A stretch of 34,298 nt of DNA from Candidatus Hestiella sp. (GTDB lineage: Archaea; Thermoproteota; Thermoprotei_A; Sulfolobales; Acidilobaceae). The notes under the pieces are model-generated. The model saw nothing but the letters and a program-made list of their open reading frames with translations. It did not search any database and was not told the origin of the DNA. A program made the position numbers and the translations under genes. Below, piece after piece: positions 9,101-34,298 of this stretch. The stretch covers positions 1-34,298 of the forward strand of contig WALX01000085.1 of assembly GCA_015522625.1 (NCBI GenBank). The letters are read 5' to 3'. Every line of letters begins with the position of its first letter. Positions within the stretch are counted from its first letter, which is position 1.

Positions 9101-9193
9101 GCCGCGGTCGTATAGTCTGGCCTAGTATGCGGGCCTGTCAAGAGAAAATCTCACAGACAGCCCGTGACCCGGGTTCAAATCCCGGCCGCGGCG
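9101..9193 (+). tRNA. tRNA-Asp (anticodon GTC) with 18-nt intron
   Basis: A complete cloverleaf can be folded by hand. The acceptor stem GCCGCGG (9101-9107) pairs with CCGCGGC (9186-9192), with discriminator G at 9193. The T arm is CCGGG-TTCAAAT-CCCGG. The anticodon stem is CGGGC (9130-9134) with GCCCG (9160-9164). The loop after splicing is C-U-GUC-A-A, with anticodon GTC at 9137-9139. An intron of 18 nt (9141-9158) sits at the canonical 37/38 position. CCA is not encoded. The G-C-rich stems contrast with the AT-rich surroundings, as expected for a thermophile. Confidence 0.96.
9141..9158 (+). other. tRNA-Asp intron with strict bulge-helix-bulge
   Basis: The intron is AGAGAAAAUCUCACAGAC. 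It forms its own hairpin GAGA/UCUC. The 4-bp central helix is CUGU (9135-9138) with ACAG (9153-9156). The 3-nt bulges are CA|A on the 5' side and AC|A on the 3' side, the strict hBHBh' geometry cut by the archaeal splicing endonuclease. Confidence 0.92.
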
Positions 9194-17396: not shown

Positions 17397-17490
17397 GCAG
17401 AATACATTTTGATATTCAAAGGGAAAGTTTAATAGATTAATGTTAAGGTAATATATTAATGGATTATGAGAGCAATGCTCCAAGTCACAA
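17397..17490 (+). repeat. Structured repeat element, truncated copy A
   Basis: The first 58 bases (17397-17454) are identical to 29008-29065 and include the TATA-like TTTAATAG at 17428-17435. The 5' helix domain then follows in diverged form: inner hairpin GAGC-AAU-GCUC (17470-17480) and outer pairs GAUU/AGUC (17462-17465 with 17483-17486). Homology stops near 17490, so the rest of the element is missing. The copy abuts the 3' end of the minus-strand winged-helix gene. Confidence 0.75.
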
Positions 17491-23932: not shown

Positions 23933-25169
23933 GATCTCCACCCTCAAAGAATTTTCTATAAGAATAGGCTAGAGCCTCTATTCCAGGCATGGGTTCCCCT
24001 GAGAGAAAATACACAACAGCGCCACCTCCGGTACTTATGTAGCTTACCTTCTTTCTTAATTCTGGGGGAAGGTCTTCTAGTATTGAAAGAAAATGACCCC
24101 CACCAAATATGATGAATGCATTTGACTTTAGAGAAGCTTCTGCAAGCTCTATTGTTCCTTTTTTAAATCTTTTGTCTTCGATGACCCCAGCTGGGCCTCT
24201 TAGTACGATAGTTTTTGAGTTCTTAAGTATCTCGCTGTATGCCTCTAGCGTTTCTTCCCCTATATCCTTCGGCGAGCCCATGATTTTGTCTATCCTTTGC
24301 ATTGACACATTTCCATCATTTAGTTCGGAGACAACATCTAAAGGTGCCATTACCTTGTTGCTTTTTGCTATCATTTTTGCATTATCTAGTAGGTGACCGA
24401 ACTTTTCTTGTAGTAATGCTTTTGCAGTGCCTACTTCATAGCCCCTTGCGTTAAGCACCAACAACGACACCAAACCTCCTGTTAATATATAGTCTGCAGA
24501 ATCCGTTTTTATGAGGTGATTTATTATTTTTACAGCATCGTCAAGCTTGGTACCACCTATGAAATACGTTATAGGGCGATGGCCGTTAAAGGCTCTCGAT
24601 AACGCTGAGACCTCATTTTGCATTACCCTTCCAGCTATGCTAGGCATTATATACGGAAAGCCTGCGATGCTTGGCTGGCTTCTATGAGATGTTGCAAATG
24701 CGTCTCCTACATAGTAATTAAAAAACTTACGAAGTTCGCTAACGAACTTTGTCCTAGAAAGGGCTTCCATTGGTTGCTCAACGTTTTCCTCGGGTAAGAA
24801 TCTGGTGTTATTCAGCATCAATATTTCGCCATTTTCGAGGGTTGCTATCCTTCTCTTCGCATCTTTGCCAATGATGTCTTTTACAAACTCTACGTTAACT
24901 CCAAGCAGGCTTGACAAAATTTCTGAGTGTTGCTCTAGGGAAATAAAGTCGTTCTTACCAGGTCTTCCCTGATGGCTCATTATCACAAGCTTTGTGTTTA
25001 ATTCAGCTAGTTCTTTTATTGTTTTTACATGGGCTTTAAACCTGCTTATGTCTAAGATCTTTCCATCCTTTATCGGGGAATTTACATCGATTCTCAATAA
25101 GATACTTTTACCTGTGAGGTCAATGTCATCCAAAGTGGCTATCTTCATATTTCTAAACAAGAGCACCAT
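23916..25169 (-). CDS. pgk: Phosphoglycerate kinase
   Basis: Transfers phosphate between 1,3-bisphosphoglycerate and ADP. 417 aa, archaeal type. N-terminal LLRIDVNSPIKDGKI and SRFKAHVKTIKEL, MSHQGRP (substrate-arginine loop), NNTRFLPEEN, YVGDAFATSHRSQPSIAGFP, FIGGTKLDDAVK (nucleotide-binding) and STGGGAVVYFLSG at the C-terminus are all present. Two starts are possible: ATG 25169 (MVLLFRNMKIA), with GGTGAT at ideal spacing, and ATG 25148 (MKIATLDDI). The leader contains a 31-bp tandem duplication that copies the Shine-Dalgarno and start codon. gap overlaps its 3' end. Confidence 0.95.
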   Translation of the reverse strand: MVLLFRNMKIATLDDIDLTGKSILLRIDVNSPIKDGKILDISRFKAHVKTIKELAELNTKLVIMSHQGRPGKNDFISLEQHSEILSSLLGVNVEFVKDIIGKDAKRRIATLENGEILMLNNTRFLPEENVEQPMEALSRTKFVSELRKFFNYYVGDAFATSHRSQPSIAGFPYIMPSIAGRVMQNEVSALSRAFNGHRPITYFIGGTKLDDAVKIINHLIKTDSADYILTGGLVSLLVLNARGYEVGTAKALLQEKFGHLLDNAKMIAKSNKVMAPLDVVSELNDGNVSMQRIDKIMGSPKDIGEETLEAYSEILKNSKTIVLRGPAGVIEDKRFKKGTIELAEASLKSNAFIIFGGGHFLSILEDLPPELRKKVSYISTGGGAVVYFLSGEPMPGIEALAYSYRKFFEGGDHVKEG

Positions 25170-25211
25170 GCCAAATCACCTTTCTAAACAAGAGCACCAT
25201 GCCAAATCACC
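25150..25211. repeat. 31-bp perfect tandem duplication over the pgk start
   Basis: Units 25150-25180 and 25181-25211 are identical. On the minus strand each reads GGTGATTTGGCATGG followed by TGCTCTTGTTTAGAAA, so each carries a full Shine-Dalgarno and ATG. Only the inner ATG (25169) is in frame with pgk; the outer one (25200) opens a short frame. Confidence 0.95.
25153..25200 (-). CDS. Upstream short ORF in the pgk leader
   Basis: Created by the 31-bp duplication. ATG 25200 with the GGTGAT Shine-Dalgarno gives MVLLFRKVIWHGALV and then TAG, so it overlaps the true pgk start in another frame and stops 14 bases inside pgk. A TATA-like TATTTAATA on the minus strand near 25228-25236 would start the mRNA just before this unit. 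Ribosomes may initiate here first; the peptide itself is probably without function. Confidence 0.45.
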   Translation of the reverse strand: MVLLFRKVIWHGALV

Positions 25212-28828: not shown

Positions 28829-29007
28829 TTTTCTGAACCCTGCCTTATTCCTTTTTAACTGGTACGTACATGTTTTGAAATACCTAACCTCCACCTTTTT
28901 TTGTTTTAGCAGAACGTAAAATAGCCATTAGTTGACCGCTGGTCTGCGTTTATATTATGCTCGCCGCACAGTTTCTATTTAAAGCTGGGAGCAAAGTTGC
29001 TAAAGGG

Positions 29008-29253
29008 GCAGAATACATTTTGATATTCAAAGGGAAAGTTTAATAGATTAATGTTAAGGTAATATGGTAGATGGGGGCTATGAGAGCAACGCTCTAAGTC
29101 CCATGAATAGGCTCTTAGATGAGAGCCTTGTTTTATTAGCCTTAAATGTTACTTATAATTCCATAGGGATTAGCAAATCCCTATGGACGAGGTGGAATTC
29201 CCTAGGCATGGCCATGAACTTATATAATTGGAATGAATACCTAGGGAGAAACG
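29008..29253 (+). ncRNA. Structured repeat element, full copy B
   Basis: 29008-29065 is identical to copy A and holds TATA-like TTTAATAG (29039-29046), about 25 bases before the first helix. Helices: ATGGGGGCT (29071-29079) with AGTCCCAT (29097-29104), one bulge; AGAGC-AAC-GCTCT (29083-29095); AGGCTCT with AGAGCCT (29109-29128); a perfect 10-bp hairpin CCATAGGGAT/ATCCCTATGG (29161-29186); and TCCCTAGG (29199-29206) with CCTAGGGA (29240-29247). A second TATA box, TTATATAA, is at 29220-29227. The element ends exactly at the GTG start of the next gene. It could be an independent RNA, a structured mRNA leader or a mobile cassette. A 90-codon open frame runs across it, but its 3' half overlaps the real gene, and copy C breaks the same frame with stops. 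Confidence 0.6.
29220..29227 (+). promoter_or_regulatory. TATA box in copy B for the downstream gene
   Basis: TTATATAA, conserved in copy C. It predicts transcription from about 29250, making the mRNA of the dehydrogenase-like gene (GTG 29254) leaderless. Confidence 0.5.
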
Positions 29254-30120
29254 GTGGTCAAGATAAAGGTAGCAGTATTAGGTACGGAGGGCATTGGGGG
29301 TCTGTTCGCCAAAAAATTTTCCGAGGAAGGTTTTAACATTTATCTGTGGGACAAGAGTCTTGAGAATGCAAAGGGCCTTGCAGGTAAGATAGGTGCTGAT
29401 GCCTTTCAGAATCCTTGGGCTGCTATTGAGAGGGCAGATGCTGCAATCTCTATTTTACCAGATGAAGATACATTTCTAGAAATTGTTTCCCAAATGAGGA
29501 GATCTGACGGTTTGTTGTTTATAAACTCGACAACAATCTCTCCGAAGATAAGTAAGGCTTCTTCTAAGCGCTTAAAAGATCTTGGCATCTGCTATGTAGA
29601 AGCGCAGGTACTTGGGGATGCAAGGGATATAAATGATAGAAGTGCTATCTTTCTGGTTGCAGGAGAAAATAACTGCGTCAGGTATTCTAAGCTGGTTTTG
29701 AGCAATATTGGTAGTATAGTTGAAGTTGGAGAAGAGGCCTATAAAGCAATGATTGCAAAGCTGGCCATAGGTTCTGTCTATCTATCTTCTATATCAGCTT
29801 TGAGCGAAGCGATAAACCTTGCAAAGGTTTATGGGATAGAAGAGGATGTCATAAAGAAAATATGCGACAAAACGCCCCTCTCAAGCCTATTAGGACACTA
29901 TTTTGGCAGGATAACCTCTGTAGAACAAGAGGCTTATTTAGAGATGGACTCAGCTTCTAACATACTTGAATACGCCAGCAGGGCTGCGTTCGATGTAGGG
30001 TTTATATTACCAACCATTAGGGCCGCTGGTCAATTATTCAAGGAAGCAGAAATTCATGGCTATGGCAAAAAGGATTTTTTAAGAATTCGCGATTATATTA
30101 ATCCTAAAGAGAAGAGTTGA
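29254..30120 (+). CDS. 3-hydroxyisobutyrate-dehydrogenase-like NAD-binding protein
   Basis: 288 aa of the beta-hydroxyacid dehydrogenase family. The N-terminal Rossmann motif VAVLGTEGIGGLFAKKF has the G-x-x-G-x-G spacing, followed by ISILPDEDT and the C-terminal helical domain with AMIAKLAIGSVYLSSISALSEA, in which K is the family's catalytic lysine. The substrate loop that usually reads APVSGG is AQVLGDARD, so it is not a typical 3-hydroxyisobutyrate enzyme; glyoxylate, succinic semialdehyde or imine reductases are other options. The GTG at 29254 lies directly at the end of repeat copy B. SD-like GGGAG is five bases upstream. Confidence 0.8.
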   Translation: MVKIKVAVLGTEGIGGLFAKKFSEEGFNIYLWDKSLENAKGLAGKIGADAFQNPWAAIERADAAISILPDEDTFLEIVSQMRRSDGLLFINSTTISPKISKASSKRLKDLGICYVEAQVLGDARDINDRSAIFLVAGENNCVRYSKLVLSNIGSIVEVGEEAYKAMIAKLAIGSVYLSSISALSEAINLAKVYGIEEDVIKKICDKTPLSSLLGHYFGRITSVEQEAYLEMDSASNILEYASRAAFDVGFILPTIRAAGQLFKEAEIHGYGKKDFLRIRDYINPKEKS

Positions 30121-30240
30121 TTGTACCTCATCGCTTTGGCCCCTCTTCACTACTTCAGTAGCGGCCTTTTCTAATCATAGGTACTAAATATTATAATCCT
30201 AAATATATAATAATTAACCTTTCGTTTTGGAGAAGCATTA

Positions 30241-30282
30241 ATGAGTCGCACGGAGAGGCAAAAAGGTACTAAGAGGTTATAA
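30241..30282 (+). CDS. Candidate tiny basic protein, 13 aa
   Basis: ATG AGT CGC encodes MSRTERQKGTKRL then TAA. It has GGAG eight bases upstream of the ATG and an AT-rich TATA region (AAATATATAATAAT near 30203-30216) about 25-30 bases before the ATG, so transcription and translation signals are both in place. The short length means it may be chance. It ends six bases before the 3' end of the convergent Nramp gene. Confidence 0.25.
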   Translation: MSRTERQKGTKRL

Positions 30283-30287
30283 TAGGG

Positions 30288-31493
30288 TCATGGAAGCGAA
30301 GAGACCAATCCTAGGAGACCACCGAATATAACTAATGTAGAAATTATCCAATATATTTTGAGTCTAACACCAGTTATCTCCTTGCCCTTCATTATAATAG
30401 GATCCGAGGCCGTCTTTCCTAAAAAGTAAAGTAAAGGTATCAGGATGACGATGTATATTACCATAAGCTCTATCATTAGGTAAATTAAGTTTCTAATGAT
30501 AAGCACCATAAATATTGCTGGTAGCGATTCCATAGAATAAATTATAAGGTAGGCCTTATGGGATCTAACGTTAAGGGCTTCTAATGTACCCCAGGCGGAC
30601 GCCATAGAAATGATTATTAGTGCTAGAAACCCTGAGGCTATAAAGCCTATGGCCATGATATAGTTTAGGTTAGGGCTTATGCTTGTAAATATTTTGTGTA
30701 GCAGGTTTGCATTTATGATGAGTTCTGGTCTATTAGCGACTGGCGGATCGATTTTTCTCATATTGTAGCCAAAAATGACTGTTATGATCATCAATACTTC
30801 AGAAACTACGGCACCTATTAGGGTTTCTAGGTTTTCATGCTTTTTTATGTTGCCTTCAGCTGTTTTTCTTGCATCTGCGCCTGAGTGGAAAAACAGCATC
30901 CATGGCATTATTACAGCCCCTATGGATGCTGCCATTAAGTAAAGGTAATTGGGGTTAGTATAAGGTTGTATTGGATTAAGTCCAAGTTTAAATAAGCTAT
31001 AAAAGTTTACTGGAAAGGAAAAAGAAAGGACTATTATTGTGGCTACTAATACGAAGCTGACTGGTAGGAGGAACTTTTCCGTAGCCTCATACTTCTTGCT
31101 AGTTACGATGGCTATGTGTAATACATAAAACAATGGTAGGCCTATGATGAGCGGAAACCCAAGTAGTTGTAAACCAATTGCTATCCCAGCATATTCTATG
31201 ACATATTCCAGGAAGTCTGTAATTGCCATAGGCATAGAAGCAAGTACTGCCTTCTTACCCCCGTACTTTATTCTAATAGCTTCGCCTAATCCCTTTCCTG
31301 AAATCGTTCCAAGGTTACCAGCTAGGTATTGAATAAAGAAAAGGGGTATTGTTAGAATGAGCATGATAAATATCATGTGATAACCCCAAGATATACCCGA
31401 TTGCATGCCCTCGACTATTGAGGCGATATCTACATTTGCTATCATTACCAGCCATGCAGGTCCAAAGGCTTTTAGTACTTTTTTGTAGTTCAT
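30288..31493 (-). CDS. Divergent Nramp-family divalent metal transporter
   Basis: 401 aa, about 11 membrane helices. The N-terminus GPAWLVMIANVDIASIVEGM aligns with Nramp TM1, where the canonical DPGN metal motif is replaced by DIAS: the aspartate is kept and the asparagine lost. TM6 keeps the metal-binding methionine, but MPH is now MPW (AVIMPWMLFFHSGADAR). It is thus an Nramp relative with an altered ion site, perhaps with changed metal choice (Mn, Fe or Mg). Start ATG 31493 after GGAG. A three-half-site DtxR/MntR-like operator precedes it and overlaps the TATA-like CTAAAAAC, which argues for metal-controlled repression and import function. Confidence 0.82.
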   Translation of the reverse strand: MNYKKVLKAFGPAWLVMIANVDIASIVEGMQSGISWGYHMIFIMLILTIPLFFIQYLAGNLGTISGKGLGEAIRIKYGGKKAVLASMPMAITDFLEYVIEYAGIAIGLQLLGFPLIIGLPLFYVLHIAIVTSKKYEATEKFLLPVSFVLVATIIVLSFSFPVNFYSLFKLGLNPIQPYTNPNYLYLMAASIGAVIMPWMLFFHSGADARKTAEGNIKKHENLETLIGAVVSEVLMIITVIFGYNMRKIDPPVANRPELIINANLLHKIFTSISPNLNYIMAIGFIASGFLALIIISMASAWGTLEALNVRSHKAYLIIYSMESLPAIFMVLIIRNLIYLMIELMVIYIVILIPLLYFLGKTASDPIIMKGKEITGVRLKIYWIISTLVIFGGLLGLVSSLP

Positions 31494-31532
31494 CTTTCTC
31501 TCCTTTTCCTAACCCCCTATTCTATCCTGCTC

Positions 31533-31559
31533 ACCTAAAGGTTTTTAGGTTTACCTAAA
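31533..31559. promoter_or_regulatory. DtxR/MntR-like operator with three half sites
   Basis: Half sites ACCTAAA (31533-31539), TTTAGGT (31544-31550) and ACCTAAA (31553-31559). The last two form the perfect palindrome TTTAGGTTTACCTAAA, close to the DtxR-family core TTAGG-N-CCTAA. It lies between the Nramp gene (minus) and tmk (plus) and covers the Nramp TATA-like element. Confidence 0.65.
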
Positions 31560-31587
31560 CTTCTTCGAAAGTTAACCCCCTCAACCC

Positions 31588-31599
31588 TTTTTTTAAAAA
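31588..31599 (+). promoter_or_regulatory. TATA element for tmk
   Basis: TTTTTTTAAAAA stretch about 26 bases before the expected transcription start near 31620, in front of the GGAG site and TTG start at 31630. Confidence 0.4.
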
Positions 31600-31629
31600 A
31601 TGCTCTAAAAACTTGCTTTGGAGATCGAA

Positions 31630-32268
31630 TTGAGAGGGATATTTATAGCTTTTGAGGGCATTGACGGTAGCGGTATAACCACGCACAGCAGGCTGGTTAC
31701 TGAGAAGCTAAAAAGAGCGGGGATGAAAGCTGTCTACACGAAGGAGCCGACAGACAGCGATATAGGCAAGTTAATAAAGTCTATGATATATAAAGAAAGG
31801 GTAGATACCAGGCTCCTAGCGTTGCTCTTCGCAACGGACAGGCTGTACCATGTGCTATATGGCGATGGGAGGAATGAGGGCATATTAAAGCTACTGGAGA
31901 AGGGCTTCATTGTCATTTGCGATAGGTATAAATACAGTAGCTTCGCATATCAAGGAATATATCAGCCAGAAGAGTGGATTCGTCAAATAAATTGGTTTGC
32001 TCCAAACGCTGATATTGTAGTGTATTTAGAGGTACCTATAGAGGTGGTCATGGAAAGGATTGGGAAGAGGGAAAAGCGGAGCGTTTTTGAGGAAAAGGCG
32101 TTTTTAAAAGAGGTAAAAAAGAGGTTCAGATACGTGCTGAAGAGGGCGGAAAAGGAAGGGACAAGGGCCGTGATAGTAAATGAACTTGAAAGTAACAAAA
32201 GAAATATAGAAAGGGACAAAAACGTTAAGGATGGCAATGACGAGGTATTAGAAAAGATGATAAGATGA
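31630..32268 (+). CDS. Thymidylate kinase-like protein with altered Walker A
   Basis: 212 aa from TTG 31630, preceded by GGAG six bases upstream; the longer version from TTG 31618 would hide that site. FIAFEGIDGSGITTHSRL is the P-loop region; the invariant Walker A lysine is isoleucine (codon ATA at 31675). Other dTMP kinase signatures are present: TKEPTDSDIG (substrate-binding), LFATDRLYHV and CDRYKYSSFAYQG (DRY motif). The C-terminal 40 residues are charged and may be an extension. It phosphorylates dTMP to dTDP if active; loss of the lysine makes that uncertain. It is divergent from the Nramp gene. Confidence 0.75.
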   Translation: MRGIFIAFEGIDGSGITTHSRLVTEKLKRAGMKAVYTKEPTDSDIGKLIKSMIYKERVDTRLLALLFATDRLYHVLYGDGRNEGILKLLEKGFIVICDRYKYSSFAYQGIYQPEEWIRQINWFAPNADIVVYLEVPIEVVMERIGKREKRSVFEEKAFLKEVKKRFRYVLKRAEKEGTRAVIVNELESNKRNIERDKNVKDGNDEVLEKMIR

Positions 32269-32286
32269 TTTGTATGCAATGCGATA

Positions 32287-32297
32287 AGATTATATAT
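32287..32297 (+). promoter_or_regulatory. TATA box for the small membrane protein operon
   Basis: GATTATATATC, with GGGAG then TTG 32344 downstream; transcription expected from about 32320. Confidence 0.5.
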
Positions 32298-32343
32298 CTC
32301 TGGCTCTAATAACCTAAAATGTAAAGCAAGAGAGGGAGATGGT

Positions 32344-32640
32344 TTGAATAAGGATAAATCGACTGGTGCTTTATTGCTTGCGGCCTCGATAGTTATAATT
32401 GTTGTGTATCTGCTTTTGCTTTGGTATCCGCCATGGGCCTCCGTAGCATCCCTGTTTTTACTAAAATTAACAGGTAGTGTGGCCATAGTAGCTGTGTTTG
32501 CAGTGATAGGATGGATAGGTTATACTTTGGCAACAACGCCCCCACCAAAGCCCATTGAGGAGATTGAAAAAGAACTTGAAAAGGAATTAAAAGAGATAGA
32601 GCAAAGCGAAAATGAAAACAGTGGTATGCAACAAAAATAA
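32344..32640 (+). CDS. Small membrane protein with two helices
   Basis: 98 aa. Two predicted membrane helices (LLLAASIVIIVVYLLLLWY and SVAIVAVFAVIGWIGYTLA) joined by a short loop, a proline-rich segment TPPPKP, and a cytoplasmic acidic coiled coil (IEEIEKELEKELKEIEQ). TTG start at 32344 after GGGAG. Its end is 18 bases before the DsbA-like gene, so they are probably one operon. Not recognised as a named family; a membrane partner for the neighbouring redox protein is a possible role. Confidence 0.65.
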   Translation: MNKDKSTGALLLAASIVIIVVYLLLLWYPPWASVASLFLLKLTGSVAIVAVFAVIGWIGYTLATTPPPKPIEEIEKELEKELKEIEQSENENSGMQQK

Positions 32641-32658
32641 TTTTTTGGGCGTAATGGA

Positions 32659-33426
32659 ATGAATAAATGGTACGCTGTTACCATAGTAGTTGTTGTGTTG
32701 GCAATTGCTGTATCGGCAGGAATAATGCAATATGGGCACAAGAAAGGAGGTGTTTATTCAGCAACTTCCGTAAAGCCCTCCATTCCCCCTAATACAACAG
32801 AAGAAAAAATAACTTTTGCAACGCTCCTGTCTTATAAGAACTCTTATTTAATGCCAGGCATTGGGAACGATAGCTCGAAGTACTATATAATAATAGCCTA
32901 CGATCCAGAATGCCCTTATTGCGCGGTAGAGTTAAACAGCACGCTCCCTTACTTCTACTCTATAGCTGAAAAAGGTTATGCTAGGGTGGAGTTTGTGGGC
33001 ATACCTGTCCATCCATATTCGTTAGAGATGATTGCCATTTTAGACCTTATCTATCAAAAATACGGTTTTCAGAAGTACTACCTAGTATTAGATAAGTCTT
33101 ACGCACAGTACGTTAGCAGCATCTATACATATTTTAAAAATGAAAGTCTAGGATTATGGGCTACCCCTCCAAAGCCTCCAACCCCCTCTACGCTCTATAG
33201 TATCATGAAGAAGTATAACCTTACAATAAATACAAGCGAAATTAATTCTACAGTAAAAGGCCTGTATCCAATAATTGCTACTTCATATCAGCTTGGGATA
33301 CAGGCAGTACCAACTTTAATTGTGTATAATGCATATACAAGCTCAACGGTACTTGAAATCGTCGGTATGAAGAAAGAAAGTGTTATAGAATCTGAAATAA
33401 ATTCTATAATTAATGGAGTAAAATAA
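32659..33426 (+). CDS. DsbA-like thiol-disulfide oxidoreductase, membrane-anchored
   Basis: 255 aa. An N-terminal membrane anchor (TIVVVVLAIAVSAGIM) exports a thioredoxin fold: YYIIIAYDPECPYCAVE, with the CPYC active site (C85, C88), and IQAVPTLIVYNAY, with the cis-proline loop AVPT. The helical insert between them matches DsbA/DsbG-type proteins. Several N-x-S/T sequons indicate an outward-facing protein. It would form or isomerise disulfides in secreted proteins. ATG 32659. The next gene begins one base after its stop. Confidence 0.82.
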   Translation: MNKWYAVTIVVVVLAIAVSAGIMQYGHKKGGVYSATSVKPSIPPNTTEEKITFATLLSYKNSYLMPGIGNDSSKYYIIIAYDPECPYCAVELNSTLPYFYSIAEKGYARVEFVGIPVHPYSLEMIAILDLIYQKYGFQKYYLVLDKSYAQYVSSIYTYFKNESLGLWATPPKPPTPSTLYSIMKKYNLTINTSEINSTVKGLYPIIATSYQLGIQAVPTLIVYNAYTSSTVLEIVGMKKESVIESEINSIINGVK

Positions 33427-33427
33427 G

Positions 33428-33880
33428 ATGAAGGTATATAGGTTTAAGTTTCCATTAGATGACATATACGTTTCTATCATAGAGAAATTTGGTATAGATA
33501 ATACTATGTTATCGCAGATATCTAAGCTCAACCAGCCAAGGAGCCTTATATTTAGTGTTAATAAAGGTGAGGATCCTTGTTTGTTAGCCTTTATCTATTT
33601 CTATGTTATGGAAGATTATGACCTTGAAGAAGCAAGGTTAAGCAATGCTTCTCTCAGGGCATTATTATATTTGACAGGATCAAGGCAGGTATCAGAAGCG
33701 TTAGAAAAGGCAAAACATTTTGATTCTATAGGAATAGTTTCTAATGGAGTCGAACATTTTTATAAAGCTCTTAGTTCACTGGGGCTCTATGAAAGCACAT
33801 TCAAAGAAGAGGTCATTGATTGCGATATGGATAAAATTGCCAGAGTAACACGCTTCAGATTGTTTAAAACGCATATCTAA
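33428..33880 (+). CDS. Cgi121-like KEOPS subunit (tentative)
   Basis: 150 aa. The middle segment NASLRALLYLTGSRQVSEAL, followed by EKAKHFDSIGIVS, resembles the Cgi121 signature EILLYLSG-x-RQI-x-x-A. In the KEOPS complex Cgi121 binds tRNA and helps make t6A37. The rest is weakly conserved by eye. ATG 33428 is one base after the stop of the DsbA-like gene, so the two are translationally coupled. Other KEOPS subunits are not in the window. Confidence 0.5.
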   Translation: MKVYRFKFPLDDIYVSIIEKFGIDNTMLSQISKLNQPRSLIFSVNKGEDPCLLAFIYFYVMEDYDLEEARLSNASLRALLYLTGSRQVSEALEKAKHFDSIGIVSNGVEHFYKALSSLGLYESTFKEEVIDCDMDKIARVTRFRLFKTHI

Positions 33881-33914
33881 TGTATTATTAACGGTTGCAC
33901 TTTCAAAAGGTGTT

Positions 33915-34020
33915 GGTTTAAGTAACTTTATTTCCAATCCATTGTGAGTTCCCTCAAGATGCGTTGCACTTCTACTCACGTTTTACTGCATTGAGGCTAT
34001 GGAAACCTCGGGGCAGAAAC
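33915..34020 (+). repeat. Possible decayed fourth copy (D) of the structured element
   Basis: Parts align loosely with the 3' half of copies B and C: TTTAAGTAACTTTATTTCC against the segment before the third hairpin, GTGAGTTCCCTCAAGATGCG against GTGGAACTCCCTAAGGTGTG, and ACCTCGGGGCAGAAAC against ACCTAGGTAGAAAC. No promoter or complete helix set remains. Immediately upstream of copy C. Confidence 0.3.
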
Positions 34021-34030
34021 ATTTTTAATT

Positions 34031-34262
34031 ATTAAAGAAAATTTATATAGGCTGTTGACAGTCAAGGCAATTATTTGAGTGGCTATGGGAGCAATGCTTC
34101 AAGCCCCTCAAAAAATAACGGAGATGTGATACCTTTTCATTGGCCTCAAATGCTATTTATAACCTCATAGGGTTAATAAATCTCTTTGAGCGAGGTGGAA
34201 CTCCCTAAGGTGTGGCCATGAGCTTATATAAGATGATTGGAACGAATACCTAGGTAGAAACG
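34031..34262 (+). ncRNA. Structured repeat element, full copy C
   Basis: TATA-like TTTATATA (34042-34049) lies about 28 bases before the first helix. Same helices as copy B with compensatory changes: GAGTGGCT (34077-34084) with AGCCCCTC (34102-34109); GGAGC-AAT-GCTTC (34088-34100); CTCATAGGG (34064+100) region 34164-34172 with CTCTTTGAG (34182-34190); CCTAAGGT (34204-34211) with ACCTAGG (34248-34254). The second hairpin of copy B is not clearly kept. TTATATAA is at 34224-34231. As in copy B, the element ends directly at a GTG start codon. Confidence 0.6.
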
Positions 34263-34298
34263 GTGAACAAAATATCCATTACACCTATGGGACGCTTC
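34263..34298 (+). CDS. Start of a gene running off the right edge
   Basis: GTG 34263 begins MNKISITPMGRF, open to the window edge. Its placement relative to copy C (end of element, TATA 39 bases upstream) is the same as that of the dehydrogenase-like gene relative to copy B, which is the main reason to call it. Too short to identify. Confidence 0.4.
   Translation, partial: MNKISITPMGRF

Follow-up and report, generated by a model that had tools for sequence, protein, structure and literature searches.

Miniature protein-less IS607 derivatives that probably carry a TnpB guide RNA in an archaeal genome

What is the repeat that occurs three times on the plus strand of the 34,298-nt stretch of Candidatus Hestiella sp. 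DNA analysed here (the window)? An earlier note had described three copies, A, B and C, of a structured RNA-like element with covarying helices. The repeat is real: copies A and B share an identical stretch of 58 nt (17397 versus 29008), and our covariance model, R1, finds copies B and C, placing them at the scaffold positions in Table 1. The true boundaries of B and C were set by the GG at their left and right ends together with three empty sites. For copy B, which is bounded by GG...GG and scores 186.9 bits with R1, they rest on two comparisons: with an empty site in sister genome G002, and with mobile copies of identical sequence (L120-L122). The TATA-like box that had been placed 25-30 nt ahead of the first helix is present in both. 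BRE- and TATA-like motifs were found upstream of solo copies in 26 of 69 stretches, against 3.0 after shuffling (maximum 9), these stretches being related and hence not independent.

Table 1. Positions of the repeat copies, their parts and the adjoining host gene in the window.
Feature	Position	Strand	Parts or basis
Copy A, truncated	17397..17489	+	Left end, promoter, partial H1; without right end
Copy B, complete mini-IS607	29007..29254	+	Left end, promoter, omegaRNA, right end
BRE/TATA-like promoter GAAAGTTTAATAG, copy B left end	29034..29046	+	Sequence; motif enriched before solo copies
OmegaRNA scaffold, copy B	29070..29254	+	Double stem-loop H1, H2, H3, terminal stem H4, 3' AAACGG
H2 apical-loop region, copy B	29128..29141	+	Pseudoknot partner of 3'-terminal AACGG
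H3 hairpin, copy B	29161-29186	+	
Terminal stem H4, copy B	29198-29206 pairs with 29240-29248	+	
Predicted guide, copy B	29255..29274	+	Predicted from IS607 reRNA architecture (PMC10711439, PMC11061315) and the empty site
Host gene, 6-phosphogluconate/3-hydroxyisobutyrate dehydrogenase family	29254..30120	+	PF03446, 2.7e-14
Copy C, complete mini-IS607	34012..34263	+	R1 match, 178.3 bits
BRE/TATA-like promoter GAAAATTTATATAGG, copy C	34037..34051	+	Sequence
OmegaRNA scaffold, copy C	34073..34263	+	Covariance model, pairing analysis
Predicted guide, copy C	34264..34283	+	As for copy B

The search of the genome and its relatives that the note had proposed returned 29 matches in the own genome (E ≤ 0.1); 36 of 60 relatives also had matches, with up to 39 per genome, either alone or beside an intact tnpB. 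Most copies lack tnpB. About 25 further copies in the genome, as well as the parent transposon described below, one stem-loop and a pseudoknot, had been missed in the note.

RNAalifold recovered almost no structure from the first MAFFT alignment, and the structure was then projected from the fold of the copy on contig C117. In a plain MAFFT alignment of 14 copies from the own genome, double changes occurred in 19 of the 45 pairs, versus 10.1 in shuffled alignments; none of 500 shuffles reached 19 pairs, and slid pairings gave 6-12. Double changes were seen in 38 of the 45 pairs among 69 copies from relatives, none of which entered model building and whose alignment was fitted to the structure; these copies held 465 cells with double changes against 139.6 (shuffled) and 54-106 (slid). 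The compensatory changes described earlier are borne out by pairing far above chance in both types of control. Pairing-preserving changes, whose absence among genome-wide copies the note had named as evidence against an RNA, are present there. The third hairpin drawn for copy B (AGGCTC..GAGCCT) is just one of two alternative foldings.

A pseudoknot, CCGUU/AACGG, connects the apical loop with the 3'-terminal AACGG. Its cells are paired in 94.3% of cases in the own-genome copies and 95.1% in relatives, and double changes convert it to UCAUU/AAUGA in C20a and UUGUU/AAUAG in C59. Copies B (four of five pairs possible), C and C123 each have one mismatch, and the copies in the window may therefore have passed their prime. 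The conserved multi-stem scaffold, with its pseudoknot to the guide-proximal end, corresponds to that of an omegaRNA. In solo copies, compensatory changes preserve H1, H3, H4 and the pseudoknot despite a broken tnpB frame. The substitutions show selection on RNA pairing, including that of the guide-proximal pseudoknot. Covariation and promoter motif thus support the earlier proposal of a non-coding RNA selected for pairing and transcribed from its own promoter.

The note had also seen no match to known archaeal RNAs, and the Rfam comparison agrees: the covariance models gave no relevant match at gathering and none at E ≤ 1 in four sources, and RAGATH-18 RNA likewise matched neither at gathering nor at E ≤ 1. 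A match to sR14 (E 0.2) was below the gathering score and was rejected. Covariation, an own promoter and no Rfam match would all suit an unrelated host RNA (of a riboswitch or ncRNA family) that duplication has multiplied, in line with the note's proposal. This explanation is in the main refuted because the parent element was found, and homology to the tnpB 3' end and to IS607 right ends, empty sites at GG and mobility make it highly improbable. The element is neither an independent host RNA nor a leader of some unknown class; it is the guide-RNA and right-end part of an IS607 transposon.

The full-length parent, located on contig C117 of the same genome, is 1,989 bp long and encodes a serine TnpA and a TnpB. 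Its TnpA (226 aa) scores 232.7 bits with NF033518 (transpos_IS607, cut-off 110) and matches PF00239 and PF12728; a serine recombinase with an HTH thus lies upstream of tnpB, as in IS607. Its TnpB passes PF07282, has RuvC residues D191 and E278 that are invariant in six relatives, and retains a third D. With NF040570 it reaches 78.3 bits, under the cut-off of 100, and its zinc ribbon is partly degenerate; this TnpB is divergent and may be weak. A profile search with it weakly matched Cas12f and IS605 OrfB/TnpB chains, while a single-sequence PDB search gave no match.

The C117 RNA overlaps the final tnpB codons and ends at the right end of the element. The position of an omegaRNA, at the right end and at or overlapping the tnpB 3' end, is found both here and in the full-length elements of relatives, where many top model matches lie directly behind tnpB genes encoding proteins 56-73% identical to that of C117. 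Copy B aligns in frame with the TnpB C-terminus (45% identity over 58 aa) and its frame is open, whereas most other copies have at least one stop in the tnpB frame and nonetheless retain the pairs. The note had regarded alignment to a transposase frame as fatal to its RNA; such an alignment exists in part, but it does not refute an RNA function, given that the omegaRNA overlaps the tnpB end. The repeated element is an IS607 right end (TnpB omegaRNA, or reRNA) fused by internal deletion to the left end and promoter. Since the window copies hold neither a TnpA nor an intact TnpB within their ~250 nt, they are non-autonomous derivatives of IS607 and not autonomous members of the family.

Hairpins near both ends, and the occurrence of TnpB in IS605 elements too, could point to an element of the IS200/IS605 type, in which a Y1 transposase would recognise the hairpins as single-stranded DNA. 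We give this very little credence, as the genome search found no Y1 (HUH) transposase (PF01797), the parent TnpA is a serine enzyme and insertion is at GG, as in IS607. Membership of IS200/IS605 was therefore dropped.

Empty sites for three copies (B, C108 and C123) were identified in sister genome G002, with insertion at a GG behind GGGG or GAGGG. Copies B, C108, C123 and L120-L122 have GG at both junctions and no longer target duplication, as is typical of IS607, and the left flank consensus across 24 junctions is G(G/A)GG. A fixed AAACGG followed by divergent flanks, with a TAM before the empty site, matches the guide and TAM arrangement of an omegaRNA. The insertion-site motif agrees with known IS607 TAMs, namely GGG for ISXfa1 (PMC10711439) and GAGGG for some IS607 TnpBs (PMC11061315). 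The parent and these junctions show origin from IS607 and insertion at GG dinucleotides. Three ~240-nt copies in genome G041 (L120-L122), without tnpB, are identical in sequence and have different flanks, a comparison which shows recent movement of TnpB-less copies. The element is short, protein-less, multicopy, mobile and derived from an autonomous element, and is thus a MITE in the broad sense. Strict MITEs have terminal inverted repeats; by reading, the left end GGCAGAATACA does not match the reverse complement of the right end CCGTTTCTCCC, as expected for IS607.

We consider it probable (roughly 0.8) that the element is a miniature protein-less IS607 derivative whose omegaRNA is loaded by TnpB, and which is moved by TnpA, both acting in trans. 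Three parts are retained: the left end with an archaeal promoter, the omegaRNA scaffold and the right end. TnpA made elsewhere would move the element as a circle via the GG crossover, and the left-end promoter would drive an RNA that reads across the scaffold and continues into the right flank, whose first ~16-20 nt would serve as the guide. TnpB made elsewhere would load this RNA and cut the matching empty site behind its GGG-type motif, after which repair would restore the element. The filled site would escape, as AAACGG, and not GGGG or GAGGG, stands before its guide-matching DNA. We infer that the RNA is expressed and active with TnpB in trans; the dozens of stripped-down copies dispersed across the genomes of these thermophilic archaea suggest that it is the guide RNA that is kept and spread.

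Alternatively, the solo copies may be leftovers of internal deletions in IS607 elements, with inherited, decaying pairing, in which the RNA has no role without an adjacent tnpB and TnpA alone acts on the ends. Many copies are truncated (A; C92, without H1; C20a, without most of H3), some older insertions are shared with the sister species (L105/L177, L102/L171), and the terminal stem could partly persist as a TnpA site. However, sequence-identical TnpB-less copies with a complete scaffold moved recently, compensatory changes preserve the pairing where the tnpB frame is broken, and the left-end promoter is retained, so we regard such dead remnants as unlikely.

Host genes flank several copies. 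Three end exactly at start codons, those of guaA (C108; PF00117/PF00958), V-ATPase subunit I (C123; PF01496) and the dehydrogenase behind copy B, and several others lie 13-80 nt ahead of dcd, TetR and other genes. The dehydrogenase GTG borrows the final G of copy B, orthologues share this start position, and the predicted guide in the right flank is formed by the opening codons of the gene. Only three cases are clear, and we rejected a start-codon position as a rule for all copies; the GTG at copy C opens no ORF of at least 50 aa within the sequence available. In many right ends CTTATATAA occurs ~26 nt from the terminus, and the insertion ahead of one TetR gene differs little between two species. 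These features would fit host co-option, with copies acting as promoters or leaders, or as guide RNAs for a TnpB-like regulator. Yet the right-end TATA is not a general feature (C117, C136 and C1 lack it), most copies occupy different places in different genomes, and GG before start codons, together with tolerance, explains the sites. We thus find co-option improbable. A long shot is that the solo omegaRNAs at the three start codons are mRNA leaders whose guide is their own gene's first codons, so that TnpB in trans processes these mRNAs or holds the loci under RNA-guided control. If true, transposon debris would form a dispersed RNA-guided regulon.

Protein-less derivatives that keep both ends are familiar from PATEs and other IS200/IS605 mini-elements of haloarchaea and bacteria, whose transposase class differs from that of IS607 derivatives. 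The preferred reading, a mini-IS607 with an omegaRNA, has its closest counterparts in the IS607 reRNAs of ISXfa1 (PMC10711439) and ISFba1 (RAGATH-18 RNA, PMC11061315), which likewise lie at the right end of the element, have a multi-stem scaffold of ~150-190 nt with a pseudoknot between apical loop and guide-proximal 3' end, and share the GG crossover and a GGG or GAGGG motif before the empty site. In contrast to these, the present element is archaeal, has no Rfam match at E ≤ 1, overlaps the coding end of tnpB and mostly occurs without tnpB. Archaeal IS200/IS605 omegaRNAs/sotRNAs (PMC12558985) are also TnpB guide RNAs at the tnpB end, but belong to elements with a Y1 transposase, and that paper does not include IS607. 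The 14 IS607-related MITEs of Staphylothermus marinus, ~260 nt long, were tied to IS607 because they resemble the sequence ahead of the transposase (PMC2678158). By description they resemble our copies in size, related crenarchaeal lineage, gene disruption and recent mobility; in 2009 they were described solely as inverted-repeat MITEs, with guide RNA and tnpB right end unrecognised (PMC2678158). We found no description of omegaRNA-bearing MITEs in the literature searched.

The covariance model describes a family of archaeal IS607 omegaRNAs that is absent from Rfam. Repeats of the MITE type had been taken for inert DNA in these archaea. If the part retained is a TnpB guide RNA with its promoter, selection is predicted to keep TnpB-dependent retention, beyond TnpA-dependent movement. 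Dozens of natural guides in a genome, combined with the empty sites known from sister species, would allow direct tests of omegaRNA action in trans and of omegaRNA parasitism.

The three plus-strand copies claimed by the earlier note are real, and copies A and B share an identical stretch of 58 nt. Searched as DNA against the assembly from which the window comes (1.34 Mb in 136 contigs; 93% complete), copy B gave 24 matches, about 15 of which are separate, diverged copies of the element, and a covariance model of its RNA found 29 matches in this genome at E <= 0.1. Among 60 relatives, 36 also matched the model, and the richest of them carried 39, 38, 36 and 30 matches. Many matches are solo copies, without a neighbouring tnpB. 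Among named relatives, Candidatus Hestiella acidicharens, a member of the Acidilobaceae, has the nearest TnpB (387 aa aligned at 96% identity). Two high-copy lineages with 38-39 matches (relatives' genomes G049, loci L138-L157, and G008, loci L158-L167) have distinctive left ends (TTTTGG/AAATTTTC; GAGG/AAATGCTTATAAGC) and thus represent several independent mini-element families. Both flanks of copy C, at the window's 3' end, recur at the end of contig C135 around an element interior about 75% identical; this reflects a single locus that varies between strains or has undergone gene conversion, or else the assembly broke at the repeat.

Positions of element copies, insertion sites and neighbouring features (own genome unless stated; a slash marks the junction)
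Feature	Location	Coordinates or junction	Remark
Copy A	window, plus strand	17397-17489	truncated
Copy B	window, plus strand	29007-29254	
Copy C	window, plus strand	34012-34263	
Region with copy C flanks	window	34010-34298	
Its counterpart	C135	5190-5608	
Full IS607 element	C117		1,989 bp; encodes TnpA and TnpB
Second omegaRNA copy	C117	4038-4194	inverted, abutting right end of full-length IS607
Zinc-ribbon match	C22	8268-8375	
Element 3' end	C22	8376-8407	
TnpB zinc-ribbon gene, other type	C125	13427-13618	
Solo copy L105	C121	4826-5012	before TetR gene
Solo copy L177	sister species G002, C66	10096-10281	before TetR gene
Empty site, dehydrogenase	G002	AAAGGGG/GTGGTTAAG	
Empty site, V-ATPase subunit I	G002	AACGGGG/TTTGAAATTG	
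Empty site, guaA	G002	AAGAGGG/TTGTCTTACG	
31-nt tandem duplication	window	25145-25206	start of phosphoglycerate kinase gene
tRNA, 93 nt	window	9101-9193	length enough for an intron

What the earlier note took for a stand-alone RNA of unfamiliar class is replaced here by a non-autonomous IS607 element carrying the omegaRNA (reRNA) of the RNA-guided nuclease TnpB, a reading about as certain as sequence allows. In the full element on C117, TnpA (226 aa) matches NF033518 (transpos_IS607, 232.7 bits) and PF00239, while TnpB (437 aa) matches PF07282 above the cut-off, retains the RuvC residues D191, E278 and the third D, and is weakly related to Cas12f and TnpB structures in a profile search. The structured region spans the right end together with the last ~60 codons of this tnpB. 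In the mini-copies, or protein-less derivatives, the part to the left is the IS607 left end including its promoter, and on C22 a zinc-ribbon match directly joins the element 3' end. The window copies are therefore internal-deletion derivatives of an IS607 element. A decayed tnpB adjoins the copy on C123, and several matches to the TnpB zinc ribbon occur in this genome. Zinc-ribbon genes of other types on C125, C14, C81 and other contigs are orphan TnpBs, as no Y1 transposase was found in this genome.

At the three sites that are empty in the sister species, the element of the window's genome lies between GG and GG, which is the signature of IS607. In 24 junctions whose left end is recognisable, the four bases directly 5' of the element are G(G/A)GG, although a few left ends may be mis-called. 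The TAMs described for IS607 are GGG (PMC10711439) and AGGAG or GAGGG (PMC11061315). Three TnpB-less copies in relative G041 (~240 nt, complete scaffold) are identical from GGG to AAACGG within unrelated flanks, showing that a protein-less element bearing the RNA has recently been transposed in trans. Solo copies L105 and L177 occupy the same place in two species, nearly unchanged, and L102/L171 is a second insertion common to both; these are old insertions with the scaffold retained.

Copy B still has an open tnpB frame, which over 58 aa shares 45% identity with the C-terminus of the C117 TnpB; that frame contains at least one stop in most other copies. Pairing is preserved despite these stops, so it is the RNA and not the protein that is retained. 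In 14 own-genome copies, aligned without fitting to the structure, 83.2% of cells are paired (45 pairs, five helices), and double changes occur in 19 of the 45 pairs, compared with 10.1 after shuffling (0 of 500 reach 19) and 6-12 with pairings slid by 1-3 columns. For 69 relatives' copies, none used to build the model and all aligned by fitting to the structure, 92.1% of cells are paired and 38 pairs show double changes, with 465 double-change cells versus 139.6 shuffled and 54-106 slid.

Searching the unpaired columns revealed an extra stem-loop, H2, and a pseudoknot, neither of which was included in the model. Five of six H2 pairs have double changes in relatives. The pseudoknot joins the H2 apical loop (consensus CCGUU) to the 3'-terminal AACGG, is paired in 94.3% of cells in own-genome copies and 95.1% in relatives, and shows compensatory changes in the copies on C20a (UCAUU/AAUGA) and C59 (UUGUU/AAUAG). 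The IS607 TnpB reRNA of ISXfa1 depends on a pseudoknot of the same kind for its activity (PMC10711439), and in ISFba1 one forms between an apical loop and the 3' flanking motif beside the guide (PMC11061315).

In 26 of 69 solo copies the left end carries a BRE/TATA-like motif 5' of the RNA, compared with 3.0 in shuffles (maximum 9). The same left-end promoter precedes tnpA in C117, so deletion would put it directly ahead of the omegaRNA, as we predict for the mini-copies. Three copies stop precisely at a start codon: copy B at that of the NAD-binding dehydrogenase gene, the C108 copy at that of guaA and the C123 copy at that of the gene for V-ATPase subunit I. Since the empty sites have a native TATA ~22-40 nt before the start, the inserted element separates gene from promoter; several right ends carry CTTATATAA ~26 nt before the element end, by which a leaderless promoter could be restored. 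Regulation of host genes by inserted copies is a minority reading. GG often occurs immediately ahead of start codons, in ribosome-binding motifs, so insertion there may be tolerance only.

No Rfam family matches the element's RNA, at gathering threshold or at E <= 1. In Staphylothermus marinus, 260-nt IS607-related MITEs were noted in 2009, with no guide RNA recognised in them (PMC2678158), and the literature searched, with key subscription papers outside its coverage, contained no report of IS607 mini-elements with an omegaRNA. Bacterial IS607 reRNAs were characterised in 2023-2024 (PMC10711439, PMC11061315). In the literature searched, the omegaRNAs known to date from archaea belong to IS200/IS605 (PMC12558985). 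The present element is IS607, and the omegaRNA of its mini-copies probably acts in trans.
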